Shown: positions 1-58,913 of the stretch, piece by piece | Layout of the letters: each line of letters opens with the position of its first letter | Numbering within the stretch: the first letter of the stretch is position 1 | Source of the DNA: a virus | DNA length: 64,000 nucleotides | IMG/VR virus record: IMGVR_UViG_3300025770_001492 | Location: 124,001 to 188,000 of that record | Direction: 5' to 3' (one strand) | The notes under the pieces: generated by a model | Database searches by the model: none | What the model was told of the DNA's origin: nothing | Seen by the model: only the letters and a program-made list of their open reading frames with translations | Made by a program: the position numbers and the translations under genes

Positions 1-116
1 TACTCTGCACATGCAGCGAGCATTTCTTTCGCTTCTTCAACATCAGAAGTAAACCACAATCCAACTTGAGGATGCTTTAAGGTTCTGCCTGTCTTTTTAT
101 TCAATAAAGTATACAT
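1..116 (-). CDS. Small hypothetical protein, partial at left edge
   Basis: An open frame begins at the ATG at 116-114 and runs off the left end after about 38 codons. The visible N-terminus starts MYTLLNKKTGRTLKHPQVGL and is followed by an acidic helix-like stretch. The ATG shares one base with the TGA of the upstream gene, so the two are probably co-translated. No family recognised. Confidence 0.5.
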   Translation of the reverse strand, partial: MYTLLNKKTGRTLKHPQVGLWFTSDVEEAKEMLAACAE

Positions 117-508
117 CAACCTATATTAGTATCAGGCGATGGAACTTGAACCGTTGAGTTAGCATTATTTTGAGCTTGTCCAAATTGTTGAGGCTGACCT
201 ATGCCGCCGCCACGAACCGAACCAGATTTTGGCGTCGAGGGTGGGGACATATTAGAAGCAGGGGGAACAGGATTCGGCTGAGTGCCGGGACTCATGTTTG
301 AAGCTGGTCTTTTGTTGTTTGTTTGCAATTTGTCAGACACATTAAATGCCGATCTGGGCTTTTTAGAACTATTTAAATTATCTTGAGGATTGATGCCTGC
401 CATTTGTGGATTAGCAGGTGCTACAGGGCTTTCTCCTGCCCTTCCTGCTGCGTTCATTCCTGTGGCACTTGCTCCCGTGCCTTGCTCAAGCCATTTTCTG
501 AATTCCAT
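116..508 (-). CDS. Hypothetical low-complexity protein with capsid-targeting-like N-terminus
   Basis: A 130-residue protein rich in Asn, Pro, Ser, Gly and Gln with no recognisable fold; it looks disordered. Its N-terminus, MEFRKWLEQ, fits the F-x-x-W-L motif shared with other proteins in this window. No Shine-Dalgarno is visible; the 15 bases before the ATG are AT-rich (TATCTACATAATAGT). It is divergent from the HNH gene with only 14 bases between them. Function unknown; an internal virion protein is a possibility by analogy only. Confidence 0.6.
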   Translation of the reverse strand: MEFRKWLEQGTGASATGMNAAGRAGESPVAPANPQMAGINPQDNLNSSKKPRSAFNVSDKLQTNNKRPASNMSPGTQPNPVPPASNMSPPSTPKSGSVRGGGIGQPQQFGQAQNNANSTVQVPSPDTNIG

Positions 509-522
509 ACTATTATGTAGAT

Positions 523-801
523 ATGGGACGTAAAAAAACGCTAATCAACAAGAAAAACAAGAAAAGATTAGAAAGCTGTGCTTTTTGCGAATGTGCAGAC
601 TATGAAATTTTAGATGTCCACAGAATAAACGAAGGAGCAGACGGAGGAAGATATACCAGTCACAACTCCTTGACTGTCTGTGCAAACTGCCATCGGAAAA
701 TTCATTCTGGAAAAATAAAAACATTCAGAAAGCATCTAAGCACTGGCGGATATGTCCTTCATTGTGAAATCGAAGGACAAGAACAGTTTTTGAAACTATG
801 A
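523..801 (+). CDS. HNH endonuclease-like protein
   Basis: A 92-residue protein with the layout of a small HNH nuclease: a C-x-x-C pair (CAFCEC), then DVHRI, then a GG..YTSHNSL segment, then CANCHRKIH supplying a second Cys pair and the final His. The Cys pairs would hold zinc and the His residues the catalytic metal. Free-standing HNH genes are frequent in large phages as homing nucleases or packaging-associated nucleases; the sequence alone does not tell which. The start is the ATG 14 bases from the divergent neighbour. Confidence 0.75.
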   Translation: MGRKKTLINKKNKKRLESCAFCECADYEILDVHRINEGADGGRYTSHNSLTVCANCHRKIHSGKIKTFRKHLSTGGYVLHCEIEGQEQFLKL

Positions 802-1062
802 TTACTTCTTTGCGTTATTGTCAGGCAAAAATTTTGCTGCATCGGCTGGCTTTAGCTGGCCGCTATCGATTGCTTTTATAACATTATTTTTTACAGCATC
901 TTTTACGGCTTTAGAATCTCCACCACTTTTGATTGTTTTTGTGGTGTCTGCTTTAATTTGCTGGCTCAACTGAGAATTCTCTGCGTCCTTTTCCGCATTG
1001 CCCTGTTGTCCCACTTCCATCTCTTTAAGAGATACCCATTTTTCAAAAGAATAATTATTCAT
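802..1062 (-). CDS. Hypothetical protein with capsid-targeting-like N-terminus
   Basis: An 86-residue, Lys/Ala/Asp-rich, probably helical protein. The first 14 residues, MNNYSFEKWVSLKE, contain F-x-x-W-V followed by L-x-E, the recognition type cut by T4 prohead protease. There is no Shine-Dalgarno; instead CATAGATAAATTACT lies directly before the ATG, matching two other motif carriers in position. Its stop lies next to that of the convergent HNH gene. Function unknown. Confidence 0.6.
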   Translation of the reverse strand: MNNYSFEKWVSLKEMEVGQQGNAEKDAENSQLSQQIKADTTKTIKSGGDSKAVKDAVKNNVIKAIDSGQLKPADAAKFLPDNNAKK

Positions 1063-1077
1063 AGTAATTTATCTATG
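1063..1077 (-). promoter_or_regulatory. TATA-like element directly before the start codon
   Basis: CATAGATAAATTACT occupies the 15 bases before the ATG at 1062. It aligns without gaps with CATAAATAATTTATT (before 47905) and CATAAATAATGTATC (before 58485). It resembles the T4 late promoter box TATAAATA; at this distance the transcript would start at or just before the ATG. Confidence 0.4.
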
Positions 1078-1119
1078 TTTGAAGCGTAAATATTTAAAAC
1101 TTTATTTAAGGATGGATAA

Positions 1120-1305
1120 ATGAAAAAAATACTAACTTTACTAATTTTGGGAATGTGTTTTTCCCTAACTGGATGCTCTTCCGACGACTCTTCCTGCTGC
1201 TGTGAGGGGGATAAATGCCATTGTGTGGATATCGGTGCCTGCTGCTGTGAAGAAGGCAAATGCAAAATAGAATGTGATTGCGAAGGATGCGATTGCAGCA
1301 AATAA
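1120..1305 (+). CDS. Cysteine-rich lipoprotein
   Basis: A 61-residue protein with a classic lipoprotein signal: MKK, a hydrophobic stretch, then lipobox LTGC. The mature part is dominated by 13 further Cys in CCC, CxC and CxxC arrangements separated by acidic and Lys residues, which recalls metallothionein-type metal binding but matches no specific family that I recognise. A good ribosome binding site (AAGGATGG) precedes the ATG. After cleavage the acylated Cys would anchor it in a membrane of the host cell. Possible roles are metal scavenging or superinfection exclusion; neither is shown. Confidence 0.75.
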   Translation: MKKILTLLILGMCFSLTGCSSDDSSCCCEGDKCHCVDIGACCCEEGKCKIECDCEGCDCSK

Positions 1306-1327
1306 ACGTTGCGCAGACCACATAGCA

Positions 1328-1831
1328 TCAAATAGGTTTCAACCTCGCCATAAACTCTATCTCTTCTATCATGGCGACAACGCCTTCTTTAATCAAGTCA
1401 TCTACGGCTGTCTCTACTCCGAACCTTTTTCCGGGTCGCTGTAGATGATCCTTGTAGTCGTGACACAATATATCCTTAGCTCCACATCTAATTGATCCTA
1501 ATATATCCCTCTTCACAACCTCTGCATCGTGGTTGCCATCAATAAAAGCAAAATCTATTGATTCAGTAGTGGATTCAAAAAAATTATCACTAGACATGTG
1601 ATGAACAATACAATTGGTTAATTTCCTTGCTTTTATTCCAGCTACGAAAGCTGCCTTCCATTCTTCAATAGGCCATATATCGACACAATGAATTTTGCCG
1701 TTGCATATTTCAGCCATTGGAAAAATTGATGCACCTTGATATACGCCTATGTTGACTATATTCTGATAATTGTTTTCTTTGACAATCTCAGCCATTATTT
1801 GATATTGCTTATTTGAGCATTTTCCTCTCAT
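1328..1831 (-). CDS. Class I SAM-dependent methyltransferase (Methyltransf_24-like)
   Basis: About 167 residues. VNIGVYQGAS corresponds to the glycine-rich SAM-binding motif I, IHCVDIWP to the acidic end of strand beta-2, and DFAFIDGNHD to the DxxHxxE-type strand typical of Methyltransf_24/TylF-like O-methyltransferases acting on sugars. The ATG at 1831 is preferred over an upstream TTG (1852); TATATACTGGC precedes it and there is no Shine-Dalgarno. The substrate is unknown; the neighbourhood of glycosyltransferases suggests a glycan. Confidence 0.7.
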   Translation of the reverse strand: MRGKCSNKQYQIMAEIVKENNYQNIVNIGVYQGASIFPMAEICNGKIHCVDIWPIEEWKAAFVAGIKARKLTNCIVHHMSSDNFFESTTESIDFAFIDGNHDAEVVKRDILGSIRCGAKDILCHDYKDHLQRPGKRFGVETAVDDLIKEGVVAMIEEIEFMARLKPI

Positions 1832-1897
1832 GCCAGTATATAGTAATATCAAATAAATTGTATTTTTAAAAAGTTTGAGGTGTGGGTAAATAAATAT

Positions 1898-2659
1898 ATG
1901 ATTAATGTCTTAATGTGTACTTATAAATCTGGCGATGTATTGCCTTTATCTTTAAAGCCTCTTGTGGACTTTCCGGGAATCACCAAGATACTCATAGCAG
2001 ATGGTCCTCATGGTGGCCCAATTAAGCCGGGAATAAAATTTGATGAACCTTCTGTCTACAAGATAGCAGAAAAGTTTAACAAAAGTGGAAAAATACATTA
2101 TGAGTATACTGACACCTGCAAAAACAGAGCATTGAAGAACAACAGTGTTTTAAAGCACACTACAGACGATTGCAAATGGATTTTAAATGTAGACTCTGAT
2201 GAGGTTTATCACGAAGATGGGTTGAAAAGGCTATTTGAATTCATCCTCACTACTGGCAATGGGTACGATAAATATAGAATCAAAACTATTGACCCTATTG
2301 ATGATTTTTTCCACGAGATCAGAATACCAGATTGGAAGCCAAGACTTTACAAATACAAAAAAGGATACATCTGTCCTCCGGGCGATTGTAGAGCACATCA
2401 ATATGTTGTTGACCCAAACAAAATAAATTCTCACAGAGAAGCAATAGAAAAATTGCCAGAAGACATTTGTAAAATATATCATCTAAATGCTTTGAGAAAC
2501 GCAAGTCTCCCACGCAAGAGAATTAAAACACTTAAGGATGGTTCATATTGTTGGAGTGGCGGCAAAATGAAATTCTATTCTGAGAAATTCGAAATAGATC
2601 GAAAAGAAATACCTAACTGTATATTGAAATTAAACAAGGATACATTGTGGACTATATAA
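1898..2659 (+). CDS. Glycosyltransferase, GT-A fold (GT2-like)
   Basis: About 253 residues. The N-terminal INVLMCTYKSGDVLPLSLKP resembles the first strand and helix of GT2-type enzymes, TCKNRALKNNSV the segment before the metal site, and WILNVDSDEVY contains the D-x-D metal/nucleotide-sugar motif. A GTG 18 bases upstream is an alternative start; GAGGTG lies 17 bases before the ATG. It overlaps the next gene by 13 bases. Donor and acceptor sugars cannot be read from the sequence. Confidence 0.7.
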   Translation: MINVLMCTYKSGDVLPLSLKPLVDFPGITKILIADGPHGGPIKPGIKFDEPSVYKIAEKFNKSGKIHYEYTDTCKNRALKNNSVLKHTTDDCKWILNVDSDEVYHEDGLKRLFEFILTTGNGYDKYRIKTIDPIDDFFHEIRIPDWKPRLYKYKKGYICPPGDCRAHQYVVDPNKINSHREAIEKLPEDICKIYHLNALRNASLPRKRIKTLKDGSYCWSGGKMKFYSEKFEIDRKEIPNCILKLNKDTLWTI

Positions 2660-7507: not shown

Positions 7508-8938
7508 TCAAGATCGACTTGCCTTGTTTATTATTTCTGTTGTTGACATGCCTTCAAGCAATTCAACAAATCTAACGTCTTCCACCAAATCGGAGCCAAT
7601 AACGACCTTGCCTTCCCAATCTCCACCTTTTACCAAAACATCAGGCATTATCTTTTTGATCAATGCATATGGAGTTTTCTGGTCAAAGGAAACGACAAAA
7701 TCAACACATTCTAACGCTGCCAGCATCTTTACTCTATCTTCTAGAGGAATTATTGGCCGCTTGTCACCTTTTATTCTTTTAATGCTATCATCAGAATTAA
7801 TGCCAACAACTAACTTGTCGCCAAACGATTTAGCTTCTTCCAAAACTTTTAAATGACCTGAATGTAATAGATCATAACACCCATTTGTAAAAACAAGTTT
7901 ATAATCTCTTTCTTGAGGAGGCATTGTCAATTTATCTGTACTCATAAGTATATCCGATGGTTTAATAGGCTTGTTGTGAGAGTTTTGCACATAAATTGCA
8001 CCAGCCTCATAAGCAATCTCACATGCATCAATTATATCCATCCCAACAGAAAGAGCCATGGCAAGGAAGGCGGCGAAGCAATCCCCTGCCCCAATTACAG
8101 ATTTAGCCTTGATGCTATCCCCCGATCTGTAATTAAAGTGCTTCCCGCCAACCTTACCGTATACTCCGTCGCCCCCATTTGTAACAACGACAGCCATGCA
8201 ACCGATTTTAGCTTGAAAATAATTGCACTGCTCTATCGGGTCTTCAAGCCCAGAAAGCTTTTTGGCTTCAAGAAAGTTAGGCTTAAACACAGTACATCCA
8301 CGCCACTTCTCAACCGGCCCATTTTTTGGGTCTACGATTGTTATAGTGTTTCCATCAGTGAGTGATGGCCAATCGACAAAAGTACCGTGAGAGTCTTCCT
8401 CGAAAATGCCTTTTCCATAATCTGAAAAGATTGCGACATCAAAACTTGATTTAAGCCACTCTGTTTGAAGTCGATCCCTAGCTTTTATAAAGTGTTCAGA
8501 TGAAAGTCCATAATTTTCCTTTTCAACATCAAGCCTGCATAGGGGGAAATCTCTTTGATAAAACCTGTTTTTTGTTGGTATTTTTTGACCGTATGATTCT
8601 TCAATATTCACAGATTCGTAAAAATTGACTTGGTTTTCATGCTGAAAACCAAGTCCCCAACTCTCAGAATTGAAAACTTTTAATGCCAAATCGTCAACAT
8701 ATCCCAAAAGTTCAACTCTTACAGGGAAGTGTTTAAATTGGGAGACAACATTGGCAGCACCACCAGGAACTGACTTTTCTGGCGATTCCCCTTCCATCAG
8801 CATCACAGGAATAGGGAATTCAGGACTGACTCGGTTTGCGCCAACTCTAAAATAGTTGTCAATCATGCAATCGCCAATAACTCCTATTCTTGGCGATTGC
8901 GTTTTGATGTTTTCTAAAAAAGTATTAAACTTATTCAT
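7508..8938 (-). CDS. hldE: HldE-like bifunctional heptose kinase/adenylyltransferase
   Basis: A 476-residue protein with the two-domain plan of HldE (RfaE). The N-terminal PfkB-type kinase domain (about 1-330) has IGVIGDCMIDNY, PGGAANVV and the anion-hole motif SVIGAGDCFAAFLA. The C-terminal nucleotidyltransferase domain (about 345-476) has FTNGCYDLLHSGHLKVL with the HxGH motif, and VGINSDDSIKRIKG. In bacteria this makes ADP-heptose for LPS and surface glycans from heptose-7-phosphate. It fits the glycan theme of the window. It is separated from the upstream operon by a terminator. Confidence 0.85.
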   Translation of the reverse strand: MNKFNTFLENIKTQSPRIGVIGDCMIDNYFRVGANRVSPEFPIPVMLMEGESPEKSVPGGAANVVSQFKHFPVRVELLGYVDDLALKVFNSESWGLGFQHENQVNFYESVNIEESYGQKIPTKNRFYQRDFPLCRLDVEKENYGLSSEHFIKARDRLQTEWLKSSFDVAIFSDYGKGIFEEDSHGTFVDWPSLTDGNTITIVDPKNGPVEKWRGCTVFKPNFLEAKKLSGLEDPIEQCNYFQAKIGCMAVVVTNGGDGVYGKVGGKHFNYRSGDSIKAKSVIGAGDCFAAFLAMALSVGMDIIDACEIAYEAGAIYVQNSHNKPIKPSDILMSTDKLTMPPQERDYKLVFTNGCYDLLHSGHLKVLEEAKSFGDKLVVGINSDDSIKRIKGDKRPIIPLEDRVKMLAALECVDFVVSFDQKTPYALIKKIMPDVLVKGGDWEGKVVIGSDLVEDVRFVELLEGMSTTEIINKASRS

Positions 8939-12880: not shown

Positions 12881-13279
12881 TTACATGGGTGACTGAGAAT
12901 CCAAGCCTTGCAGAAGTGCGGTGTTCAACTGATCAACAGGAATCGTATAAACTTTGTTATCTGGATCTTCATAAGCACTGACTCTGATTTGCTTTCCATC
13001 ATCGTCTTTTTTAAACTTTTTCTTTGTTGTATCACTTGTATCGTTCATCATCTGGATTTTAGCATGGGTTATATTTCCATCAGAATCACGATCATACCCT
13101 AAAATTTTATATCCAGATAGGTTATATGAATTTCCACCTATAGAAAACTGAGAAATAGTCTGCGGACTGTCTGCAACTAGTTCAGGGGGTATTCCTAGCT
13201 CGTCTTCAATTTGGTTTAAATAATCTATTTTTTGTTTTTGATATTCCAAAAAATCTCTAAATGATAAATTGTTGTTCAT
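12881..13279 (-). CDS. Hypothetical protein with capsid-targeting-like N-terminus
   Basis: A 132-residue protein starting MNNNLSFRDFLEYQKQ, which fits the F-x-x-[W/F]-L motif. A middle region (NSYNLSGYKILGYDRDSDGN) may be a small beta domain; the rest is polar. There is no Shine-Dalgarno; TATATAAGGC immediately precedes the ATG. Family unknown. Confidence 0.6.
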   Translation of the reverse strand: MNNNLSFRDFLEYQKQKIDYLNQIEDELGIPPELVADSPQTISQFSIGGNSYNLSGYKILGYDRDSDGNITHAKIQMMNDTSDTTKKKFKKDDDGKQIRVSAYEDPDNKVYTIPVDQLNTALLQGLDSQSPM

Positions 13280-13324
13280 GCCTTATATACTCTATGAGTA
13301 GATCTTTTTTTGAGAAACATTAAT

Positions 13325-34167: not shown

Positions 34168-34395
34168 TCAAACAGTCTTGCTTAACCACTCTTTAAAGCT
34201 AAAGTTTTTTATAAGCAAGGAATCTATTTGTCTATTTGGATTAACAATTATTTTGTTAATTTCTTTCTTTCCTTTTTCAGATGTTATTGCTTTCCATGCT
34301 TTTTTTCTTGTCGGATAGCTCATATCTTTAAAAGATGATCTTAAATTTTTTACAATATCTTCTATTGCATCTCTTTTATTTGATTTTTTACTCAA
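34168..34395 (-). CDS. Small basic protein with C-terminal F-x-x-W-L motif
   Basis: A 75-residue Lys-rich protein. Its start is a TTG two bases after the upstream stop. The C-terminus, NFSFKEWLSKTV, carries the same F-x-x-W-L motif that other proteins here have at their N-terminus. Function unknown. Confidence 0.45.
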   Translation of the reverse strand: MSKKSNKRDAIEDIVKNLRSSFKDMSYPTRKKAWKAITSEKGKKEINKIIVNPNRQIDSLLIKNFSFKEWLSKTV

Positions 34396-34396: not shown

Positions 34397-35176
34397 TTAG
34401 TACCATTTCAGAGTATTAGTGATTGTTTCTATTATTTCAGAATTTTCCTGTGTAGGAAAGAAATTCAAATCAGTATCAGAAGGACTCATGGCCCACTCAT
34501 GTTGTCCCATTCCAGACTCTATGTTGTAGTTCAATATTCGAATCATCCCTTTTTCTTTTTCGAATATTATAGAAGTTTGATTTTCCTCGACTCTTTGATG
34601 ATCTGGTGCTTGGTTGCCATGTCCTTTAACTCCCAGTCTGATGATATAATTAGAATTACTTATTTTCTTAATGCCCTCATAGATGAAGATATTCTTTGCG
34701 TTTCTTCTTATAGAATCAGCCATTTGTACAACTAGGCTTTCGAGTTTATTATATTCTCTCTTTGGAGAATCTATATCCTCTTTATTTATCACTTGCACTT
34801 CGTCTAAAACTTCATTGGCGACTATATCTTCATATCCCCCATATCCGCCTCTGTTTATTTGAAAAATTCTTTTTGTATACCAAGTTGGGTTCCCAGTTAA
34901 ATCGCTTCCTAGTCTGTCGATCATGAGATTCAGACCAGTACCACACCAGCACTTTATAGAACCGGAATTATCTCCCCATTGTACCTCATTCATGAAATTG
35001 CTACGCCCTTCATTGGTTCCAATTTTTTTAGATGCGAGTATAGAAAACAGCTTTTCTAAATCAAAAGATTTTATAGGCATATCGTTTTGATGTGACTTCT
35101 CAGCATCTTTGTTGTTTTGATCAAATCCAAAAATATCTTTAAATTCTAACCATGTTTTAAAGCCTTTAACTGTCAT
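34397..35176 (-). CDS. Hypothetical protein with capsid-targeting-like N-terminus
   Basis: A 259-residue protein starting MTVKGFKTWLEFKD, which fits F-x-x-W-L. The body is mixed alpha/beta with a Gly-rich patch (GTGLNLMIDRL; RGGYGGYED) and no family that I recognise. It sits downstream of the fibre-type genes on the minus strand. Possible internal virion protein. Confidence 0.6.
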   Translation of the reverse strand: MTVKGFKTWLEFKDIFGFDQNNKDAEKSHQNDMPIKSFDLEKLFSILASKKIGTNEGRSNFMNEVQWGDNSGSIKCWCGTGLNLMIDRLGSDLTGNPTWYTKRIFQINRGGYGGYEDIVANEVLDEVQVINKEDIDSPKREYNKLESLVVQMADSIRRNAKNIFIYEGIKKISNSNYIIRLGVKGHGNQAPDHQRVEENQTSIIFEKEKGMIRILNYNIESGMGQHEWAMSPSDTDLNFFPTQENSEIIETITNTLKWY

Positions 35177-35565: not shown

Positions 35566-37098
35566 TTAAACATTTTCTATTTCTACTAGAGTTGTTTTAG
35601 CACACCATCTAATTGTTTCACTTGCTACTCCTGTCACTTTGATTGCTAATGCATCATTTGTGTTGTCTGCTTCTGCGTCTGTATCCCAAGAAGCGGTATC
35701 TTCAGCTATTGTTGTTTTTGTTGGAGTTCCTACTAAAGCTGTTGTTCCACTGGTGTTTTCAATAACTCCTTCTATTCTATATCCTCCTCCATCACCAGAT
35801 GTTACACTTCTTCCTACGATTAATATATCAAAAAGATAAGTTTGGCCGCTTGGTATTGATATTCTAGCATTTGTAACATCTCCTATAAACATTTCTGTTT
35901 GAGTAGCGTTAGTTGTCTCACATGCAGACACAACATAGCTTGTTTGTGCTTTTTTAATTGTTTCTGTGACTGTTATGTTTGACCAATAACTTAAATCAGA
36001 TTGCAGTAACACTCCTGAAGTTGTAACTACAGCATCGTAATTCCCTGATTCTCCCGCAATGACTCCATCAAAAGATCCATTGTATTTCCCGTCTAGTGAT
36101 GTTGACCATGTTTCGCTTCCTCCTAAAGGAGCATCATTATCTGTTTGATCTTCTCCATATAGAATATTATCCACCCATACTCGAACGCTTCCTATTGGCC
36201 CAACTTGAAATTCCCACATTAAATCAAAATCTACGTTTTGAGGCAGTGAAGCATTGGGTATTTCAACTCTAGCGAAGTCGTCAACATCAGGAGTTGCGCT
36301 GCCATCTCCCAATCTAACAACTAAGTCGTAAGATCCATTAAATCCGCAATATCCACCTCTGAATGAATTGCCCATTTCGAAAATACAACCTTCTGGATTT
36401 GTTCCTGTTGGTATGTTTACAGTTGTTTTAAATACAGCGTTTTGACTTCTTCCTATATTTTGAGGAGATCCTCCACCTGTATATGAAAAAGCTGAATTTA
36501 CATTGCTTCCGCTTGTAATAACTTCATCAGCAGACGCAACAGGGGTAGCACCCTCTTCGAAAGCTCCAGAACTCCTAGCATGCTGACATCTTAATGTGGC
36601 TAAAGCATTTTTCCCTGTTGCCAGAGAATAATCGCCACTGGCAGTGCAATCTTCTCCTATTTCTACTCCATTTGTGCTTATAGGGTTTAATGCAATGTTT
36701 CCGCTTGTTGATGAAACTATGTTTCCGTCAAATTTTAAATTATCAACTGTTAAGGACCCGTTTATCCCAATTGTTGTAGACGATCCATCATTTGTTCTTA
36801 CAAAGTCCGTGGTTCCTCCAAAACTTCCCGCATTATTATATTGCACATAAGTATCAGAGCCTCCTGGCGATCCTCCACCATTCGAATCAACATACGACTT
36901 AGTAGCTGCATCTTGGTTTGCAGTAGGATCGGTTATATTTACGATTTTGTTGGTTTGCATGTCAAGATTACCAGTAAATCTTAATTGGTTTGCTCCATCG
37001 ATAGTGGTTAGGCCAAGAGCTTCAATAGATTCATCGTCAGATGTAATTTCGTTCTCTTGTATTTTTAAATATTTTCCACTTATGAATTTAACTACCAT
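35566..37098 (-). CDS. Fibre-like structural protein
   Basis: A 510-residue protein. Residues about 30-75 form a module (DGANQLRFTGNLDMQTNKIV, then NITDPTANQDAATKSYVD) shared with three neighbours and common in phage fibre proteins. A Gly-rich segment with YVQYNNAGSFGG follows, then beta-rich domains and a C-terminal domain (GTPTKT...WCAKTTLVEIENV) shared with the next gene. GGAGG precedes the ATG. Likely part of a tail or head fibre. Confidence 0.75.
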   Translation of the reverse strand: MVVKFISGKYLKIQENEITSDDESIEALGLTTIDGANQLRFTGNLDMQTNKIVNITDPTANQDAATKSYVDSNGGGSPGGSDTYVQYNNAGSFGGTTDFVRTNDGSSTTIGINGSLTVDNLKFDGNIVSSTSGNIALNPISTNGVEIGEDCTASGDYSLATGKNALATLRCQHARSSGAFEEGATPVASADEVITSGSNVNSAFSYTGGGSPQNIGRSQNAVFKTTVNIPTGTNPEGCIFEMGNSFRGGYCGFNGSYDLVVRLGDGSATPDVDDFARVEIPNASLPQNVDFDLMWEFQVGPIGSVRVWVDNILYGEDQTDNDAPLGGSETWSTSLDGKYNGSFDGVIAGESGNYDAVVTTSGVLLQSDLSYWSNITVTETIKKAQTSYVVSACETTNATQTEMFIGDVTNARISIPSGQTYLFDILIVGRSVTSGDGGGYRIEGVIENTSGTTALVGTPTKTTIAEDTASWDTDAEADNTNDALAIKVTGVASETIRWCAKTTLVEIENV

Positions 37099-38163
37099 TT
37101 ATCCTCCAAGTATTCCATTTCCTACGGTTGACCAAGTTTCATCTTTAATTCCTCCGTGGAAAGGAATTGGTGCTCCACTTGCCTCTCCTCTAACCTCGAC
37201 TGCTGTCATCTTCGCACACCAGTGTGTAGTCGAATTTGACCCATGTATCCCTTTTAAAATTACACTTACATCTCCTGCGGATGGAGTGTTGCTTGCAAGA
37301 CTTAAGGTCACATCTAGATCAGGACTTCCTGATGCTATTGCTGTTTTTGTTGGAGTTCCTACAAATGATCCGGTTCCATCGTTGTTTTTAATTAATCCGT
37401 TATATCTATATGCGTTTCTTTTTTGATTGGTCCCATCGTCTGTTGTTCCCACTATTAAATATTCAAAAAGCGAATTCCCGTCAGTTGGTAATTCAAATGA
37501 ATTGTAATTTCCGCCTGGATATATTTCAGCCGTAGCATCGTCTGAACGTTGACGATTGTGATATGTTAGATAGAGAGTTTGGTAGACATTTACTGATTTC
37601 CCAAGATTCCCAGAGCTAGTTAAATGTTGTCCAACTCTACCTTCTCCTAAAGGTTCGGCATCGGTTCCATGAACAAGTAAGAAGTCTTCTGTAACTGTTG
37701 GGTTAAAATGCTCTGAACTGTTTATTACAAATCCATTGTTATTGATTGGGTCTACAACTAGATTTTGAAGAGATATGTTATTATTTGTTCTAATTTCATT
37801 TGGATTTTGGCCACTTATCCCAATTCTATCAATTTCAACATTATCCGTAGCCGTTACATTTCCCGATCCATCAAATATGAAACCTGCTCCTCCACCAAAG
37901 CTGCCTGCATTGTTGTATTGCACATGAGTATTTGACCCGCCTGGTGATCCTCCACCATTTGCATCAGCGTATGCCTTAGTAGCAGCTTCTTGGTTTGCCG
38001 TTGGGTCTGTAAGATTGACTACTTTATTTGTCTGAAGATCCATATCGCCAGAAAATTTTAGCTGCCTTGCTCCATCCATCTGAGTTCTTGCCAATGAAGA
38101 TACCAGATCTCTCCCATCAGTAGAAATAACTATTATTCTTCCGCTTATTTGTTTAACAGACAT
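37099..38163 (-). CDS. Fibre-like structural protein
   Basis: A 354-residue protein from the ATG at 38163. It shares the N-terminal QTNKVVNLTDPTANQEAATK module, the HVQYNNAGSFGG linker and the C-terminal GTPTKT...WCAKMTAVEVRG domain with the 510-residue protein, but the middle differs. The start lies about 14 bases after a terminator hairpin and has TATATAAGTTC but no Shine-Dalgarno, so it may have its own promoter overlapping the terminator tail. Confidence 0.7.
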   Translation of the reverse strand: MSVKQISGRIIVISTDGRDLVSSLARTQMDGARQLKFSGDMDLQTNKVVNLTDPTANQEAATKAYADANGGGSPGGSNTHVQYNNAGSFGGGAGFIFDGSGNVTATDNVEIDRIGISGQNPNEIRTNNNISLQNLVVDPINNNGFVINSSEHFNPTVTEDFLLVHGTDAEPLGEGRVGQHLTSSGNLGKSVNVYQTLYLTYHNRQRSDDATAEIYPGGNYNSFELPTDGNSLFEYLIVGTTDDGTNQKRNAYRYNGLIKNNDGTGSFVGTPTKTAIASGSPDLDVTLSLASNTPSAGDVSVILKGIHGSNSTTHWCAKMTAVEVRGEASGAPIPFHGGIKDETWSTVGNGILGG

Positions 38164-38175
38164 GAACTTATATAT

Positions 38176-38204
38176 TAAAAAAGGATGGCAAATTGCCATC
38201 CTTT
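38176..38204 (-). terminator. Terminator hairpin between fibre genes
   Basis: AAAGGATGGCA pairs with TGCCATCCTTT around a 3-base loop (11-bp perfect stem), followed on the minus strand by six T. It ends transcription of the gene at 38230 and lies just before the start of the next gene. Confidence 0.85.
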
Positions 38205-38229
38205 AGAGTTTTAATAATTTAAATCAAAT

Positions 38230-39384
38230 TTATTGGTTGTAATTAACTAGAATCACATCTCCAGACTCAGGGGCAGTATTAAATGTTATAATGGCTCCTG
38301 ATAAAGTGTAATCATTTGCACCACCAGTATTCTGGATGATGCCATTTAGATAAATACAATCAGTATTTGACAAAGGTGTTGCCGCCATTGTGAAGTCTGT
38401 ATTTGATCCATTAACTGTTCCTGTAGGAGTTTCTCTTGTTACCCAAGTATCTGTAACATATGAATCCGCAATGGTAAAGGCTGCACTTGAACTCATTGTC
38501 AGGTCGCCCCCAACTGCGTTGTAGGTAGTGTCAGATGCACCTTGTCCAACAAGCAATGCAGCAGAAGCTCCATCGGCAAGAGAAAGCCCACTAGAACCTA
38601 GAGCGAGAGTTGATCCATCAAGATTAACTTCAATATCATCAGCATTTACGGTAATTCCACCCGAAGTTGCAGCACCAATATTAACATCACCGCCAGATGC
38701 TGCTAGACCGCTTCCTGCACCGACTGAAATACCGCCAGCACCAAGGTTTAGTCCCGAATTAGTATCCAGATTTATTGTGATGTCGTTTGCATTTGCTGTT
38801 AATCCACCGCTTGTTGCGGCAACAACATCTACTGTTTCATCAGTCTTCGTAAGACCAGCACCAGCTACAAGATCGCCTAAAAGTTGTCCGGTTTGAGAGA
38901 ATTTTTCAAAAGTCAGAGCGGTTGTATCTAGAGTGATAGATCCGGTTGTAGTTAGCAACCAGCCAGTGTCTGCGTTTGAAGTTCCTTCTTCAATGAATGC
39001 AAACATGCCAGTTGTAACTTCGGCACTTGTGTTTGCGTCTGAAGATCTGACAGGAGCACCAGATGCGGTTACATCATAAATACCGTTTTGGTTACCAGTT
39101 GATTGATTCTTAAGAAGAATTCTATCGTCTGCTACAAGAGTCACTCCGTCTACGGTTTGACCTGCTGTGAATGCTGAAGCAAAAGTTCCATTAGACGTAG
39201 TTGCTACCCTAATGCTTTCTTTAAAATCAATTACACCACCTGCAACTTGAGCATCAACATATGCTTTCGTTGCAGCTTCCTGATTTGCTGTCGGATCTGT
39301 AAGATTGACAATTTTATTGGTTTGCAAGTCAAGATTGCCAGTAAATCTTAACTGACGAGCACCATCTGTTTGTGTTACGGCCAT
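38230..39384 (-). CDS. Fibre-like structural protein, paralogue A
   Basis: A 384-residue protein. N-terminal QTNKIVNLTDPTANQEAATK module, then a beta domain (RILLKNQSTGNQNGIYDVTA), then a Gly/Ala/Asn/Asp repeat region (ATSGGLTANANDITINLD and AATSGGITVNADDIEVNL), and a C-terminal domain (TPTGTVNGSNTDF...GDVILVNYN). It is a tandem duplicate of the gene at 39437. Probably a trimeric fibre. Confidence 0.75.
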   Translation of the reverse strand: MAVTQTDGARQLRFTGNLDLQTNKIVNLTDPTANQEAATKAYVDAQVAGGVIDFKESIRVATTSNGTFASAFTAGQTVDGVTLVADDRILLKNQSTGNQNGIYDVTASGAPVRSSDANTSAEVTTGMFAFIEEGTSNADTGWLLTTTGSITLDTTALTFEKFSQTGQLLGDLVAGAGLTKTDETVDVVAATSGGLTANANDITINLDTNSGLNLGAGGISVGAGSGLAASGGDVNIGAATSGGITVNADDIEVNLDGSTLALGSSGLSLADGASAALLVGQGASDTTYNAVGGDLTMSSSAAFTIADSYVTDTWVTRETPTGTVNGSNTDFTMAATPLSNTDCIYLNGIIQNTGGANDYTLSGAIITFNTAPESGDVILVNYNQ

Positions 39385-39436
39385 TTTTTTCCTTCCTTGG
39401 ATTTTAATTTTATGGTAATTTTATGGTAATTTTATT

Positions 39437-40591
39437 TTATTTGGCATAATTAACTAATAAAACATCTCCGGTTTCAGGAGCACTATTGAAAGTGATTGAG
39501 TTTGTTGAAATGGTGTAATCATTTGAACCGCCAACATTTTGAAGTATACCATTTAAATGGACACATTCTGTTCCACTTAAAGGCGTTGCTGCCAACGTGT
39601 AAGAAGCATTGCTTCCATTTACAAGTCCTGATGGAACTTCTCTGTAAACCCAAGTATCTGTAACATATGAATCCGCAATGGTAAAGGCTGCACTTGAACT
39701 CATTGTCAGGTCGCCCCCAACTGCGTTGTAAGTCGAATCAGATGCACCTTGTCCAACAAGCAATGCAGCAGAGGCTCCATCGGCAAGAGAAAGACCACTA
39801 GCACCTAGAGCGAGAGTTGATCCGTCAAGATTTACTTGGATATCATCAGCATTTACGGTAATTCCACCCGAAGTTGCAGCACCAACATTAACGTCACCGC
39901 CAGATGCTGCCAAACCACTTCCTGCACCGACTGAGATACCGTTAGCACCAAGGTTTAGTCCCGAATTAGTATCTAGATTTATTGTGATGTCGTTTGCATT
40001 TGCTGTTAATCCACCGCTTGTTGCGGCAACAACATCTACTGTTTCAGCAGTCTTCGTAAGACCAGCACCAGCTACAAGATCTTCTAAAAGTTGTCCAACT
40101 TCACTGAATTTTTCAAAAGTCAGAGCCGTTGTATCTAAGGTGATAGTTCCAGTTGTAGTTAGTAACCATCCGGTTTTTGCGTTTGAAGTTCCTTCTTCTA
40201 CAAAACAAAACAGTCCACTTGTAACTTCTGCACTTGTGTCTGCATCTGATGACCTACTTGGAGCACCAGTAGCTTGTACTATGTAGATTCCGTTCTCGTC
40301 TCCTGATGACTGGTTTTTGATTAAAATTCTATCATTAGTTGCAAGAGTCACTCCGTCTATAACGTCGTTATTTTCAAAATCACTAGCTAGAGTTCCTGTT
40401 GCCGTAGTTGCAACTCTGACACTTTCTTTAAAATCAATTACACCACCTGCAACTTGAGCATCAACATATGATTTCGTAGCAGCGTCTTGATTTGCTGTCG
40501 GATCTGTAAGATTGACAATTTTATTGGTTTGCAAGTCAAGATTACCAGTAAATCTTAATTGACGAGCACCATCTATTTGTGTTACGGCCAT
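39437..40591 (-). CDS. Fibre-like structural protein, paralogue B
   Basis: A 384-residue protein of exactly the same length as paralogue A and nearly identical through the central repeat region. Differences concentrate in the second beta domain (residues about 60-160) and in the C-terminal domain (VPSGLVNGSNASY...GDVLLVNYA). This pattern suggests tandem duplication with gene conversion in the middle and divergence at the likely ligand-facing parts. It is the first gene of the minus-strand fibre block. Confidence 0.75.
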   Translation of the reverse strand: MAVTQIDGARQLRFTGNLDLQTNKIVNLTDPTANQDAATKSYVDAQVAGGVIDFKESVRVATTATGTLASDFENNDVIDGVTLATNDRILIKNQSSGDENGIYIVQATGAPSRSSDADTSAEVTSGLFCFVEEGTSNAKTGWLLTTTGTITLDTTALTFEKFSEVGQLLEDLVAGAGLTKTAETVDVVAATSGGLTANANDITINLDTNSGLNLGANGISVGAGSGLAASGGDVNVGAATSGGITVNADDIQVNLDGSTLALGASGLSLADGASAALLVGQGASDSTYNAVGGDLTMSSSAAFTIADSYVTDTWVYREVPSGLVNGSNASYTLAATPLSGTECVHLNGILQNVGGSNDYTISTNSITFNSAPETGDVLLVNYAK

Positions 40592-43682: not shown

Positions 43683-43705
43683 ACCTAAAAACTATATATT
43701 TTGTT

Positions 43706-43960
43706 ATGGAATTTAGATATTGGATAGAATCTGAAGCGAAAGCACTGGCGTCTAGAGACATGGTGCTTAATTTTCTTCAAGATAAATTAAACATTAATGA
43801 TCCCGAAGCAATCCTAAATATGTCTACAGATCAGATAGACTCAGGCGTTATTGCAGATCTTTCCCAAAGAGGAATTATATCTTCTGATGATGAGCTTCAA
43901 TCTATAATCAAGAACGGAATTAAGATATCTGAATTAATAAACATTCTTTCAAAGCAATGA
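43706..43960 (+). CDS. Small protein with capsid-targeting-like N-terminus
   Basis: An 84-residue helical acidic protein starting MEFRYWIESEAKAL, a clear F-x-x-W-I motif with the same first four residues (MEFR) as the protein at 508. TATATATTTTGTT precedes the ATG and there is no Shine-Dalgarno. Function unknown; candidate internal virion protein. Confidence 0.6.
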   Translation: MEFRYWIESEAKALASRDMVLNFLQDKLNINDPEAILNMSTDQIDSGVIADLSQRGIISSDDELQSIIKNGIKISELINILSKQ

Positions 43961-47889: not shown

Positions 47890-47904
47890 CATAAATAATT
47901 TATT
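47890..47904 (+). promoter_or_regulatory. TATA-like element directly before the start codon
   Basis: CATAAATAATTTATT fills the 15 bases before the ATG at 47905, in the same spacing as those before 1062 and 58485. It resembles the T4 late promoter TATAAATA. No Shine-Dalgarno is present. Confidence 0.45.
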
Positions 47905-49884
47905 ATGTTTAGAAATTGGATAGAAAATAAAGAACAGTTAAATAAATCGGTCAACAAGTCAATTGACGAAATTGTTTATGGCGATATGGATGAAAAGACA
48001 GATGCTCTGTCTAAAAAAGAGCATCCTCTCTTTAAAGGAAGATTTAAGGTAGACCCACCACCTTCCAACACCTCGAAAGAAACTATCGAGGAACTTAAAG
48101 AGCTAGAAAAGATGAGTCATTTTAAGTCCAAAGATATCATGAAAGATATGAAGGATTTTGATGTGGCTCAAGTCAAGCCATTTGAAGATTATCTTAAACA
48201 AAATTCTCTAGATTTCGATTTCAAAATGCTTAACAAAATACTTAAGCAAGGCGAAATACTTGGACTAAAGCTTAAAAAGAAGTTCAACAGACCAAGACCG
48301 CATCAGATCGCACCCAAGATGGGTCTAAACATAATGTATCATGATTTGAAAACAGACGATACGCCAGCTTATCCTTCAAATCACTCTTTGATTTCTTCTT
48401 TAATTGCTCTATATCTTTCTTCGCTATATCCGAAACATGAAAAAGGATTCATGGACATTGCAGACAGGATCGGAATTAGCCGATTATATGGAGGGACTCA
48501 TTATCGAAGCGATCATGATTCTGCAAGGAAACTAGCTAAGGACATCATGAAGTCTTGGAAACCTGCTGTTAAGCCTGCAAAATATTCGTTCACTGAGTGG
48601 ATGCTGAAGCTCGAAGACCAAGGTATCCACGCATTCATGCGAGTGGCAAGTGAAAAATATAAAGACGACAGAAGTAAAGACATTCTTGTTATTTATGGAA
48701 ATACGACGCCAATTAAAGACAAACTAAAAGAAATAACAAAATTTACTTGGAACCAAGGTGGCTATTGGAGCACGGGCAGGTGGAGTCTGAATAATGATGT
48801 GATTCAAAAACTCATAGAGCTAACTGGAATAACTGATTTGAAAGAAATCATAGATGCTGGACCGCAATTTAACGCTGATTCGACTGAGGCAGAAGAAGAG
48901 AAAGATGCACCCAAGAGTCAAGTTGATGCGATTCTTGGTAACATGGAACAGGAAATTGAAAACGCTAAAGGCAAAGCGGGCGGTAAAGCAAAACAAATTC
49001 TCACCATGATTGAAAACTATCTTGAAAAATTGGCCAACTTGGTTGATGAAGAAATCAAATCAGGATTCGTTAAAGACTTTATGCGGTTTGCTGCTAAATT
49101 CCACAACTACTCTTTCAATAATCAAATGTTGATTTACGCACAAAAGAAAGATGCAACTTACGTAAACTCTGAAAGTCGTTGGCTTAAACTCGGAAGAGCA
49201 GTTACCAATAAGGATCAAGGAATTATAATTCTTGCGCCTATGACAGGAAAGAAAAAAGAAAAAGATGCAGATTTAGAGGGGCAAAAGGAAGAAAGAAAAT
49301 TTGTATTCTTCAGACCCGTTAAAGTTTATGATATTTCTTCAACACAAGTCATATCAGGACAAGAAGACAAGGCAAAAGTGTTTGAGCCAAATGATTGGCG
49401 ACAAGATACTGATGAAAACACTGAAGAACTTACCCTGCTCATCAATGCAGGAATAGAAATAGCCAAGCAAAAAGATATATCTATCGACTATGAGGAACTA
49501 GCTCAAGGTACGGGCGGCTACTCTGCGGGTGGAAAGATTGTAATCAACAACACCTATGGTGGAATCAACAAGTTTAGCACTCTCGTACATGAACTCGCCC
49601 ATGAAATACTCCATCAAGTAATGAAGCCAGAAGAAAGAGCAAAAGAAAACAAAAGAGATTTTGAATATGATGCTGAATCTGTGGCCTATATCGTTCTTCA
49701 ATACTTTGGATTTGAAACCAAAGACTCTCCAAGATATATCGCTCTATGGAAAGGCGACAGCAAAGCAGTTAAAGGAAGAAGAGAAAATATCAGCAAAGCA
49801 TCAAAGGAAATCATTCAAGGCATAAAAAAGAATGTCGAGGATATGGTAATTCAAGATGATCTCCCTGAAGAAGATGCTGCCTAA
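47905..49884 (+). CDS. PAP2 phosphatase / ArdC-like antirestriction / zinc peptidase fusion
   Basis: A 659-residue multidomain protein. Residues 1-6 (MFRNWI) fit the targeting-like motif. About 90-220 is a PAP2-type acid phosphatase: KKKFNRPRP, PSNH (157-160), SRLYGGTHYRSD (192-203). A second motif copy, KYSFTEWMLKLED, is at 226-238. About 385-480 matches the ArdC N-terminal ssDNA-binding domain (NNQMLIYAQ, SRWLKLGRAV, GIIILAP). About 535-600 is a zincin: VHELAHEIL (H562, E563, H566) and DAESVAY (E591). ArdC proteins block restriction; the architecture suggests two packaged proteins fused. Middle region 240-320 unassigned. Confidence 0.75.
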   Translation: MFRNWIENKEQLNKSVNKSIDEIVYGDMDEKTDALSKKEHPLFKGRFKVDPPPSNTSKETIEELKELEKMSHFKSKDIMKDMKDFDVAQVKPFEDYLKQNSLDFDFKMLNKILKQGEILGLKLKKKFNRPRPHQIAPKMGLNIMYHDLKTDDTPAYPSNHSLISSLIALYLSSLYPKHEKGFMDIADRIGISRLYGGTHYRSDHDSARKLAKDIMKSWKPAVKPAKYSFTEWMLKLEDQGIHAFMRVASEKYKDDRSKDILVIYGNTTPIKDKLKEITKFTWNQGGYWSTGRWSLNNDVIQKLIELTGITDLKEIIDAGPQFNADSTEAEEEKDAPKSQVDAILGNMEQEIENAKGKAGGKAKQILTMIENYLEKLANLVDEEIKSGFVKDFMRFAAKFHNYSFNNQMLIYAQKKDATYVNSESRWLKLGRAVTNKDQGIIILAPMTGKKKEKDADLEGQKEERKFVFFRPVKVYDISSTQVISGQEDKAKVFEPNDWRQDTDENTEELTLLINAGIEIAKQKDISIDYEELAQGTGGYSAGGKIVINNTYGGINKFSTLVHELAHEILHQVMKPEERAKENKRDFEYDAESVAYIVLQYFGFETKDSPRYIALWKGDSKAVKGRRENISKASKEIIQGIKKNVEDMVIQDDLPEEDAA

Positions 49885-54672: not shown

Positions 54673-54707
54673 TTCAATATCTCCTAAAAGGTTTTAGTGC
54701 CTTTGAA

Positions 54708-54908: not shown

Positions 54909-54924
54909 ACAACTCCATCCAGTT

Positions 54925-56244: not shown

Positions 56245-56256
56245 TTTGGAACGATG

Positions 56257-56285: not shown

Positions 56286-56304
56286 TTAATGTAAGGAGTT
56301 AGTT

Positions 56305-56649
56305 ATGAAAAACGCAGCTAAGTTTTCGTTAATGGCGGCAGTTGTTCTGTCTACCATGACAATTATGAGTGCCGACGCAGATGCAGGATTGTTCTGTCGT
56401 CAGCCAGTTCGAACAATGTTGAAAAACACTGTTTGCCGAGTTAAAACTTGTCGTCCCGTTCGATCAATGGCTTGCAATACAGCCTGTCGAGTTCGCACGG
56501 TCAAGCCGGTTCGAAGAGTTCTTCGTGGCTCAGTGAATGTTGTTCGTTCTGTTTTGCCACCGTATGGTTGTTGTAATAGTTGTTCAACTGCAACTGTAAC
56601 AGAAACAGAAACACAAAAAGCACCTGCACCTGCACCTCCTGCTAATTAG
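56305..56649 (+). CDS. Secreted Cys/Arg-rich repeat protein
   Basis: A 114-residue protein with a Sec signal peptide (MKNAAKFSLMAAVVLSTMTI, cleavage likely after the Ala-Asp-Ala segment near residue 27). The mature part has repeated C-R-x-x-[R/K]-PVR units (CRQPVRTM, CRPVRSM, CRVRTVKPVR), a CC pair and a Pro/Ala tail. It forms an isolated transcription unit with tandem promoters, a strong ribosome binding site and a terminator, in the midst of minus-strand genes. Function unknown; export to the host envelope is likely. Confidence 0.7.
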   Translation: MKNAAKFSLMAAVVLSTMTIMSADADAGLFCRQPVRTMLKNTVCRVKTCRPVRSMACNTACRVRTVKPVRRVLRGSVNVVRSVLPPYGCCNSCSTATVTETETQKAPAPAPPAN

Positions 56650-56676
56650 CAGGAAGCTAGGTTAAAGTAAAAGAGC

Positions 56677-56704
56677 AAAAAGCCCGCCATTCGGCGGGCT
56701 TTTT
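56677..56704 (+). terminator. Rho-independent terminator
   Basis: AAAAAGCCCGCC pairs with GGCGGGCTTTTT around a short loop. It ends the gene at 56305 and, by symmetry, could also stop minus-strand transcripts from 56708. Confidence 0.9.
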
Positions 56705-56707
56705 CTA

Positions 56708-56935
56708 TTATCTATTACACTCATCGCATGGATATCGAGTATCGTCCGAATAGCAGTCATGTGGATCATTTGCTGGCCCATCATAGTGGTTCAACTCATG
56801 CGACCAAACCCATCCAGAGTCATTGCACTTTTCGCACAATGGGTATGGGCAATTTTTGCATCCATTATGACAGCATTTCTTTTGCTTGAGCAGGAACTCT
56901 CTGCTGAATGGTTGTTTTTCATATGAGTTTTTCAT
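56708..56935 (-). CDS. Small Cys-rich protein (DUF5522-like start)
   Basis: A 75-residue protein. FSREFLLKQKKCCHNGCKNCPY matches the CC-x-x-GC-x-x-CPY pattern of DUF5522 proteins; two further C-x-x-C pairs (CEKCNDSGW and CDECNR) form a zinc-ribbon-like tail. Starts at 56935 or 56953; it overlaps the glycosyltransferase gene upstream. Confidence 0.6.
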   Translation of the reverse strand: MKNSYEKQPFSREFLLKQKKCCHNGCKNCPYPLCEKCNDSGWVWSHELNHYDGPANDPHDCYSDDTRYPCDECNR

Positions 56936-57785
56936 ATTTGTCCCATATATCATCTAAGTTTTCAGTAGGCTGAAATCTTTGATAATAAGAAGAGAAGTGT
57001 GCCATGATGGGTCCTGCGTGTACGCAGTTTATTTTTCCTAGTCTTTTAGGGATTGCCTTCGTAAGATCTAATTCTTCATTCATTGCGACACTTTTGAATT
57101 GTCCTCCAAACCAACTGATGCAATTAATGAGAACTCTTTCCTGCTGTCTAAGCAGGACATTTCCTATTTTGTATTTTTCTAAATTGTTATTTTTTACATC
57201 TTCAATGAATTGATTATGTATATCGCATATAGCTCTGCCTTTATAAAAGCAGTTTGTACAGTTCCATTCATATTTGCAATCTTTCAGGGATTCCAAATCT
57301 AGGACTTTTCTTTGATATAAAATGTAATTTAAAAAAGGACTATTCACGATCAGCGGATAGACCAGCAGATATTCTTCGTTTTCGACTCTGAACTTCAGTA
57401 GTTCTTCGATTGCGTTATCTTGCATGTAGCAGATATCATCATCGAATCTAATATAGACTGCATTTTCATCTCTGCAATATTTGAAAAAGTTGTGTATTCT
57501 ATAGCATCTGTACCCATGATCTCTGTGGGAGCAGAATTTGTGCTGTTCTTCAGGAAACTCCCAAGCCTTATCATTTGCTTCTTTTATTTCTATTTTTGGA
57601 TTTTCACTTTTCATTTGATGAATATAATCGACATCTTCTGGGTTATCGGTATTAAGCCAGATTTGCCACTCATCAATGATGTCGCACTTTTCTACATATT
57701 TTCTTAATAGTTTTAAGTTTTTCTTTCGTCCTGCCGGTGTTACGGCAACAACTTTGTATATTTTACTTTTTCCTGAAATAGGCAT
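56919..57785 (-). CDS. Glycosyltransferase-like protein
   Basis: A 288-residue protein. YKVVAVTPAGRKKNLKLLRK opens a GT-A type fold, DEWQIWLNTDNPEDVDYI follows, and AVYIRFDDDICYMQ supplies the metal-binding DDD. A Cys pair (WNCTNCFYKG) in the middle is unusual. It overlaps the TylF-type methyltransferase gene by 23 bases, pointing to a shared pathway. Confidence 0.65.
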   Translation of the reverse strand: MPISGKSKIYKVVAVTPAGRKKNLKLLRKYVEKCDIIDEWQIWLNTDNPEDVDYIHQMKSENPKIEIKEANDKAWEFPEEQHKFCSHRDHGYRCYRIHNFFKYCRDENAVYIRFDDDICYMQDNAIEELLKFRVENEEYLLVYPLIVNSPFLNYILYQRKVLDLESLKDCKYEWNCTNCFYKGRAICDIHNQFIEDVKNNNLEKYKIGNVLLRQQERVLINCISWFGGQFKSVAMNEELDLTKAIPKRLGKINCVHAGPIMAHFSSYYQRFQPTENLDDIWDKYEKLI

Positions 57786-58425
57786 GTACTGATCCTTGAA
57801 GTGTTTTTACATTTAAATCATTTATTGTTTCTGGTTTGTCGTTTAAAAATTCATCCACGGCTTCTTTTGCTCCAGGAAAATCTATTAAACCATAGTCATC
57901 TATCACGCAAACAGAACCCTTTGTCAGTCTAGGATAGACGCCTTCAATGCTTGTCTTAATAGATTCATACAAGTCTCCGTCTAAATGTGCAAAACATATT
58001 TGATCGGGAAGATGTTTTGGAACTGTATTTTCAAACCAGCCTGGAATTACTTTTTTGCATCCTAATAGATCGAATACCGAAAGATTTTTAAGAAGAACGT
58101 CTGGTGATGTTGCAAACATGCCGGGTTTTGCCCAAGGATGATTTTCGTATTTCCATGGACCACCTCGGCTAGGCTTGTCTTTTTCGGAAAAATCAGGCAA
58201 TCCTTGAAATGAATCAAGTAGATATAGATCTTTGTCAGATTTTTGCCACTCCATTACTGCCGCTATTACTCTTGTGGATAATCCGTCGCATGTCCCCAAT
58301 TCAGCAACATCGCCTTCCACGCCATATTCCAGCACTTGAGTAACAAGGTGGTAATGGTTCATTAGACGAGAAGAATTCATCCTTGGGTCGTTGATATTTA
58401 ATAGGGCTTTTATTTTATTGTTCAT
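57763..58425 (-). CDS. TylF-like O-methyltransferase
   Basis: A 220-residue protein. GDVAELGTCDGLSTRVIAAV (motif I), LYLLDSFQGLPDFSEKD (the TylF signature DSFxGLP), ICFAHLDGDLYESIKTSIEG (DxD metal site) and GSVCVIDDYG are the hallmarks of macrocin O-methyltransferase TylF and relatives, which methylate sugar hydroxyls with Mg. AAGGATC precedes the ATG. Confidence 0.85.
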   Translation of the reverse strand: MNNKIKALLNINDPRMNSSRLMNHYHLVTQVLEYGVEGDVAELGTCDGLSTRVIAAVMEWQKSDKDLYLLDSFQGLPDFSEKDKPSRGGPWKYENHPWAKPGMFATSPDVLLKNLSVFDLLGCKKVIPGWFENTVPKHLPDQICFAHLDGDLYESIKTSIEGVYPRLTKGSVCVIDDYGLIDFPGAKEAVDEFLNDKPETINDLNVKTLQGSVHAYFRKK

Positions 58426-58469
58426 TTTTAGATCCTTCGATTTTAAATTAGTAGAATTTCGATTTTAAT

Positions 58470-58484
58470 CATAAATAATGTATC
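58470..58484 (+). promoter_or_regulatory. TATA-like element directly before the start codon
   Basis: CATAAATAATGTATC fills the 15 bases before the ATG at 58485; 12 of 15 bases equal those before 47905. No Shine-Dalgarno. Confidence 0.45.
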
Positions 58485-58913
58485 ATGAATTTTAAAGACT
58501 TTATTGTATCAGAAGAAGATATGGCACCGATGGGAGACCCTATGGGCGGTGGAATGCCGATGGGAGACCCTATGGGCGGTGGAATGCCGATGGACCCTAT
58601 GGGTGGAGCACCCCCAATGGACCCTATGGGAGGGATGGGTGGAGGAGCACCCCCAATGGACCCTATGGGAGGGATGGGTGGAGGAGCACCAGGCGGCGTT
58701 CAACCACCAATACAATTTAAACCTAATTCTGTTTGGGATGTTTTAGATAAAATATTAAATGGAGAGCCTGTTAACGATAAAGAAGATGAAGAAAAAGAAA
58801 AAGAAAAAGAAGTAGATCAATCTGGACAAGAAAATTTAGATATGTTAAGTTCCCCTCAACAGCAAGAACCGGGAATGGCCCCCACTGGTCAAGTTGAGAA
58901 TCCTCAGCTTTAA
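58485..58913 (+). CDS. Met/Gly/Pro-rich repeat protein with capsid-targeting-like N-terminus
   Basis: A 142-residue protein. MNFKDFIVSEED fits F-x-x-F-I followed by acidic residues, close to the T4 internal-protein start MKTYQEFIAE. Residues about 12-72 are a tandem array of DPMGG(G)MP and PPMDPMGGMGG units; then a short folded piece (NSVWDVLDKILNGEPVND) and an acidic tail. The repeat is low complexity and may be disordered. Candidate internal or scaffold-like virion protein. Confidence 0.65.
   Translation: MNFKDFIVSEEDMAPMGDPMGGGMPMGDPMGGGMPMDPMGGAPPMDPMGGMGGGAPPMDPMGGMGGGAPGGVQPPIQFKPNSVWDVLDKILNGEPVNDKEDEEKEKEKEVDQSGQENLDMLSSPQQQEPGMAPTGQVENPQL
58533..58690 (+). repeat. Tandem short repeats within the Met-rich gene
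   Basis: Two near-identical units of about 27 bases (from 58533 and 58560), then two of about 48 bases (GTGGAGGAGCACCCCCAATG type) in direct succession. They encode the DPMGG repeats. In-frame repeat gain or loss is likely in relatives. Confidence 0.75.

Follow-up and report, generated by a model that had tools for sequence, protein, structure and literature searches.

The internal proteins IPI, IPII and IPIII of phage T4 carry an N-terminal capsid-targeting sequence (CTS; Mullaney and Black 1996, as reviewed in PMC9026906; also PMC12373910). In IPIII (MKTYQEFIAE), targeting is achieved mainly via residues 4 and 7 and processing via residues 8 and 10, and the protease gp21 cuts after [L/I]-x-E (PMC9026906). 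Type IV restriction is blocked by the T4 internal proteins, which are recognised by the same kind of leader (PMC12373910). In phage P1, an N-terminal signal brings the large anti-restriction protein DarB into the head (PMC9024508), the giant phages phiKZ and SPN3US have many injected head proteins and a prohead protease cutting after E (PMC5694885), and ArdC-type proteins are thought to accompany the DNA and shield it from restriction (PMC5512222). We analysed a 64,000-nucleotide stretch of viral DNA (the window), bases 124001-188000 of the 245,522-base record IMGVR_UViG_3300025770_001492. An earlier note had pointed out at least seven unrelated proteins in it that open with F-x-x-[W/F]-[I/L/V], and had likened this motif to the T4 CTS. 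What was computed here is the tag with its enrichment and modularity, the T4-type head module of relatives, a carrier family within that module, the junction site that one family has, and the elements upstream of the carriers. The motif very probably serves as a portable tag for capsid targeting, of the T4 type, and would load its cargo into the prohead for injection.

Enrichment of a short terminal motif

The genes of the whole record were called with a simple codon-usage caller that is blind to the motif, and four starts were corrected or added by hand. F-x-x-[WF]-[ILVM] beginning at residues 2-8 was found in 22 of the 301 genes, where 1.1 were expected from the internal motif density (P 2e-21), and 200 runs of N-terminal residue shuffling gave at most 6 motif-bearing proteins. 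The uncorrected gene calls contained the motif in 19/300 genes (1.4 expected), and a caller-free DNA pattern search gave 45 matches, compared with 16 for the reversed pattern. The comparison with shuffled controls had been proposed in the earlier note and places the N-termini of the record far above chance; the seven proteins are a subset of its carriers. Conserved are F at position 0, W, F or Y at +3 and L or I at +4, and the aromatic pair has the spacing of Y4 and F7 in IPIII. The T4 N-termini that were fetched read MKTYQEFIAE (IPII, IPIII), MKTFKEFTS (IPI) and MKTFKEFIKED (gp61.1). Orthologues mostly kept the motif or a near form, with varying residues after it (genes 80123, 84789, 113938, 158397, 167706, 182485, 192687, 218005, 218913 and 235528). 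For a 995-residue carrier, no relatives were found in two collections.

A SpoVR-like gene led to the relative LR756511.1, a 595-kb uncultured phage, where the motif was counted 23 times with 3.5 expected and its W form 16 times with 0.84 expected. A weight matrix trained solely on the window's genome recovered 22 N-termini in LR756511 at a score of at least 6 (2.1 expected) and 139 across 117 other loci (7.4 expected). Its best score in T4 was that of gp61.1. The major capsid protein (MCP) of LR756511 and one carrier served as queries for the locus set, which comprised 117 non-redundant loci with 1,944 genes. The motif was present in 42 of the 742 genes of the MCP-centred loci, where 2.1 were expected (P 1e-39, to be read as a guide), and in 69/1,142 genes of the non-MCP loci after removal of the query family (4.9 expected). 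By body sequence, 232 carriers fell into about 126 families. One giant-phage lineage marks more than 100 otherwise unrelated proteins with the same short terminal peptide.

The earlier note had described the tag as N-terminal. It is enriched there but not confined to this end, as some orthologues are tagged at the C-terminus. A Nudix gene, which lies next to the gene of the TRYSVEVN carrier treated below and is downstream of the same neighbour whichever end is tagged, bears an N-terminal tag in the window's genome (218514-218939) and in the loci L134, L156 and L162. The tag is C-terminal in LR756511 (...HNHSFKEWLSQRI; L044:14464-14877, that is 474464-474877) and in L155, L157, L150, L148, L159, L146, L138 and L168, and looser forms occur elsewhere. 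A weakly supported Nudix tree indicates at least one change between the two positions. Among all genes, F..W[ILVM] was found near C-termini 20 times with 3.6 expected, related genes being counted repeatedly. In the literature searched, no description of a C-terminal capsid-targeting signal in T4-type phages was found. The chances are about even that a general cargo-address system, independent of the end that is tagged, operates in huge phages with T4-type heads; an N- or C-terminal helix of about 10 residues would then load dozens of different enzymes per genome into the prohead. The virion would then be a multi-enzyme delivery vehicle.

Head genes, prefix junction and expression of the carriers

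LR756511 has a T4-type head module with the terminase (gp17), the portal gp20, the gp21 protease, a gp22-like scaffold protein (525018-525950) and gp23. The Pfam matches were PF07230 for gp20 (2.6e-73), PF03420 for gp21 (2.5e-27) and PF07068 for gp23 (2.5e-86). T4-type prohead genes including the gp21 protease and the scaffold were seen in LR756511 and 54 relatives. In 49 of the 54 modules, one carrier family is represented by a small protein whose gene lies between those of the gp20 portal and the gp21 protease; automatic reading recovered its motif (MKTFxxY and similar) in 44 of these. The family sits where T4 has the core proteins 67 and 68. The portal gene of LR756511 (L047:11014-13587) contains an intein-like insert, with a PF14890 match below the family cut-off.

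The best case of conservation is the carrier at genome position 218005 with the TRYSVEVN body. The prefixes of its homologues differ strongly in length and sequence and mostly open with a motif-like aromatic pair; 34/64 passed the regular expression, and many others are looser (MKFSEWQ, MKTFKDWT). Directly before the body, [LIVM]-x-E closes the prefix in 55 of the 62 homologues, compared with at most 32 for shuffled prefix ends and at most 13 for body windows. The E of this junction lies 5 residues (35 cases) or 3 residues (12 cases) ahead of the body, and the P1' residue after it is S, A or G in 44/55 members. The family consensus is MxxFxxWxxxxxxLxExxxxTRYSVEVNYRT. In the AlphaFold (AF2) model (predicted local distance difference test score, pLDDT, 82), a helix at residues 3-9 coincides with the motif, the linker after it is loosely predicted, and the body is folded. 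For the cut at [L/I]-x-E that the earlier note had mentioned for T4, a gp21-type consensus stands at the prefix/body junction of this one family; an immediate site is usually not inside the motif, and the candidate site lies further downstream or is absent. The TRYSVEVN carrier (L002:10005-10514; L133-L212) is common in the clade and has a conserved NWDDGEWV core, and a fold search with it gave no significant match.

The bodies of the seven window proteins share no Pfam or PHROG family, as had been proposed, and domains were assigned only in the 659-residue protein. This protein matched PF01569 (2.6e-9) and PF08401 (1.3e-8; ArdC-N, 35.5 bits, above the cut-off of 22.6) in Pfam and anti-restriction and metallo-protease families in PHROG. 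Besides PAP2 and ArdC-N, the carriers include Nudix, nucleotidyltransferase, NADAR, 2H-phosphodiesterase, HAD, thymidylate kinase, FMN reductase, MT-A70, UvrD and SNF2-type helicase domains; the Nudix hydrolase at 218514 matched PF00293 with 57 bits (cut-off 21.1, E 2.7e-15). The cargo is of the conflict type.

Among the genes of the record is one for a gp55-like sigma factor. In this record, TATAAATA with at most one mismatch was found upstream of 8/22 carriers and 16/144 non-carriers (P 0.005; a priori test, P 0.004-0.005), the non-carriers being gap-matched with upstream gaps of at least 40. The post hoc k-mers TATATA and ATAAATA preceded 13/22 carriers and 22/144 gap-matched non-carriers (P 2.7e-5). 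The corresponding counts were 13/27 against 28/303 in LR756511 (P 1.5e-6) and 123/278 against 299/1666 in the large locus set (P 3.5e-20). By this proxy, the common upstream elements appear late-promoter-like and the tagged proteins appear to be late. A Shine-Dalgarno-like sequence was rare in the carriers of the record (4/22 vs 157/278), and therefore some late carrier mRNAs may be leaderless. In several carriers of this genome, ATAAATA stands 8-14 bases ahead of the ATG.

Proposed capsid targeting and its alternatives

If the motif targets the capsid, it would form a short amphipathic helix with F and W/F (i, i+3) and L/I (i+4) on one face, and this face would bind the scaffold or core of the prohead while the shell is still open. 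Proteins that bear the tag and are made late would thereby be shut in the head, and at least some of them would be released when a gp21-type protease cuts at an [LI]-x-E further downstream. The cargo would be ejected with the DNA and could start to work as soon as it enters a new host, in anti-restriction, in nucleotide and RNA processing or as helicases. The resemblance to the T4 CTS that had been noted is supported by the enrichment, the IPIII-like aromatic pair, the head genes of relatives, the head-module carriers, the junction consensus, the late-promoter-like elements and the conflict-type cargo. As in T4, the tag is N-terminal, about 10 residues long, has an i/i+3 aromatic pair followed by I or L and sits on otherwise unrelated proteins that appear to be late; gp20, gp21 and gp23 of the relatives are of the T4 type, and [LI]xE follows the prefix in one family. 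Unlike in T4, the second aromatic residue is often W, tens of carriers per genome stand against a handful, large multidomain enzymes are tagged, the candidate cleavage site is apart from the targeting pair or missing, and C-terminal copies exist. New here are the far wider tagging, the apparent uncoupling of cleavage from targeting and the Nudix orthologues tagged at either terminus. The system is a large, flexible version of the T4 CTS and no new category.

Several points weigh against capsid targeting. Scaffold docking, packaging, cleavage and ejection are all steps that we infer. The carrier in the head module is encoded on the strand opposite to the head genes. In the window's own record, gp20, gp21 and gp23 were not detected (no match to PF07230, PF03420 and PF07068), and since the controls gave no match either, the absence of head genes is not established; the record is probably a fragment. 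The [LI]xE site at residues 5-40 was not enriched in the carriers of this record (8/22 vs 108/278), so that many may remain uncleaved. The TATATA and ATAAATA k-mers were picked after inspecting the same record, and the common ancestry of the loci means that their P values overstate independence and serve as guides.

An alternative is that the tag, by docking or localisation, directs proteins not to the prohead core but to another structure formed late, which could be the tail, the neck, the baseplate or an assembly site within the cell. The late appearance of the tagged proteins would fit this, as would the position of the TRYSVEVN carrier near the neck gene gp13 in many relatives and of a carrier gene just downstream of gp13 in 36/80 relative loci. 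However, a carrier family lies within the portal-protease-scaffold-MCP cluster, the tag matches the mapped residues of the T4 CTS and is followed by a gp21-type site in one family, and the cargo consists of ArdC, NADAR and helicases, with structural domains not among it. We consider such a role improbable. Slightly less probable still is that the tag acts in the infected cell on unpackaged proteins, in stability, in binding a phage or host factor or in import into a phage compartment. Many partners are conceivable for a short hydrophobic helix, and the many carriers without a Shine-Dalgarno-like sequence hint at unusual expression, but such a role leaves the prohead-protease consensus at the junction and the conserved copy in the head module without a reason, and the tag occurs in a clade with T4-type heads. 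Almost no weight is left for a chance or composition artefact of N-termini. The motif is short and one clear chance match is known, an HldE-like enzyme (window 7508-8938) judged so because its orthologue lacks the motif. The internal-density, shuffle and reversed-pattern controls speak against chance, and we count it as refuted by them. Moreover, the W form was not enriched in NCTB, SP-15, Mosig, Mel-JY01 and LR756502, the motif was not enriched in T4 by the same N-terminal test, and diverged orthologues keep it.

Among the other systems, P1 resembles the proposed capsid targeting through the N-terminal signal of DarB, whereas the P1 Dar proteins have no BLAST consensus and P1 has no separate scaffold (PMC9024508). 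The phages phiKZ and SPN3US are likewise giant, with many injected proteins and a protease cutting after E, but their head propeptides are mostly longer than 100 residues and no short common motif has been described (PMC5694885). Polyvalent proteins, for which delivery together with the DNA has been predicted, have the same pairing of ArdC-N and metalloprotease (PMC5512222) as the 659-residue carrier, which adds PAP2 and the capsid tag. If capsid targeting is right, the list of injected proteins of uncultured huge phages becomes readable from sequence, any tagged protein is a candidate for virion cargo, and more than 100 mostly unknown families become candidates for anti-defence or takeover. 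Tag and scaffold can be compared across hundreds of loci, so that the question of what recognises the CTS on a T4-type core becomes testable, with the gp22-like scaffold and a 616-residue core protein of LR756511 as candidate receptors. A short end-independent tag could also prove useful for loading such heads.

Carriers in the window and neighbouring genes

The open reading frame (ORF) check found all seven proteins with the starts, strands and N-termini that had been reported (Table 1). Orthologues of the 259-residue carrier have 59% identity in G001 and 29% in LR756511 (start MKSFASWF); its predicted fold (pLDDT 41) was not used. The PAP2 half and the ArdC-N/metalloprotease-like half of the 659-residue carrier have YSFTEWM, a second stretch resembling the tag, lying between them, and the protein is possibly an old gene fusion.

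Table 1. Tagged proteins in the window and further carriers of the same genome (window coordinates unless stated)
Feature	Position	Strand	Remarks
130-residue protein, MEFRKWLEQ...	116..508	-	motif FRKWL codons 488-502; low-complexity body; no family
86-residue protein, MNNYSFEKWVSLKE...	802..1062	-	motif FEKWV codons 1033-1047; L-K-E right after motif
132-residue protein, MNNNLSFRDFLEY...	12881..13279	-	motif codons 13247-13261; TATATA element 13284-13289
51-residue ORF ending FSFKEWLSKTV	34168..34323	-	candidate C-terminal tag copy, tentative; motif codons 34183-34197
259-residue protein, MTVKGFKTWLEF...	34397..35176	-	motif kept in orthologues
84-residue protein, MEFRYWIESE...	43706..43960	+	G001 orthologue MEFRFWIEA; TATATA 43693-43698
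659-residue protein, MFRNWIENKE...	47905..49884	+	PAP2 phosphatase domain 118-203; ArdC N-terminal domain 364-475; metalloprotease-like C-terminal part; ATAAATA 47891-47897
142-residue protein, MNFKDFIVSE...	58485..58913	+	Gly/Met/Pro-rich; G001 orthologue MISFSNFVDLYEQAPPP; ATAAATA 58471-58477
Further carriers, genome starts	80123, 84789, 113938, 192687, 218005, 218514, 235528	+	
Further carriers, genome starts	39944, 46395, 96884, 112272, 209692, 214070, 217054, 219530	-	

A ClpP-like gene outside the window (genome 116495-117208; L004:12495-13208) was dropped as a candidate head protease once the relatives showed the true gp21; it matches head maturation protease families and is unrelated to gp21. 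The portal and MCP candidates at genome 117459-122479 (L004:13459-18479) instead resemble a bacterial SpoVR/YeaH/PrkA-type trio of three adjoining genes, the first of which matches a phage gene annotated spoVR. Two small CsrA-like proteins (MLVLSRK...; L009, genome 5529-5762 and 10710-10868) were seen by eye only. Within the window, four related tail-fibre-like genes lie in tandem at 35566-40591 and have a common N-terminal stretch like DGARQLRFTGNLDLQTNKIVNLTDPTAN.

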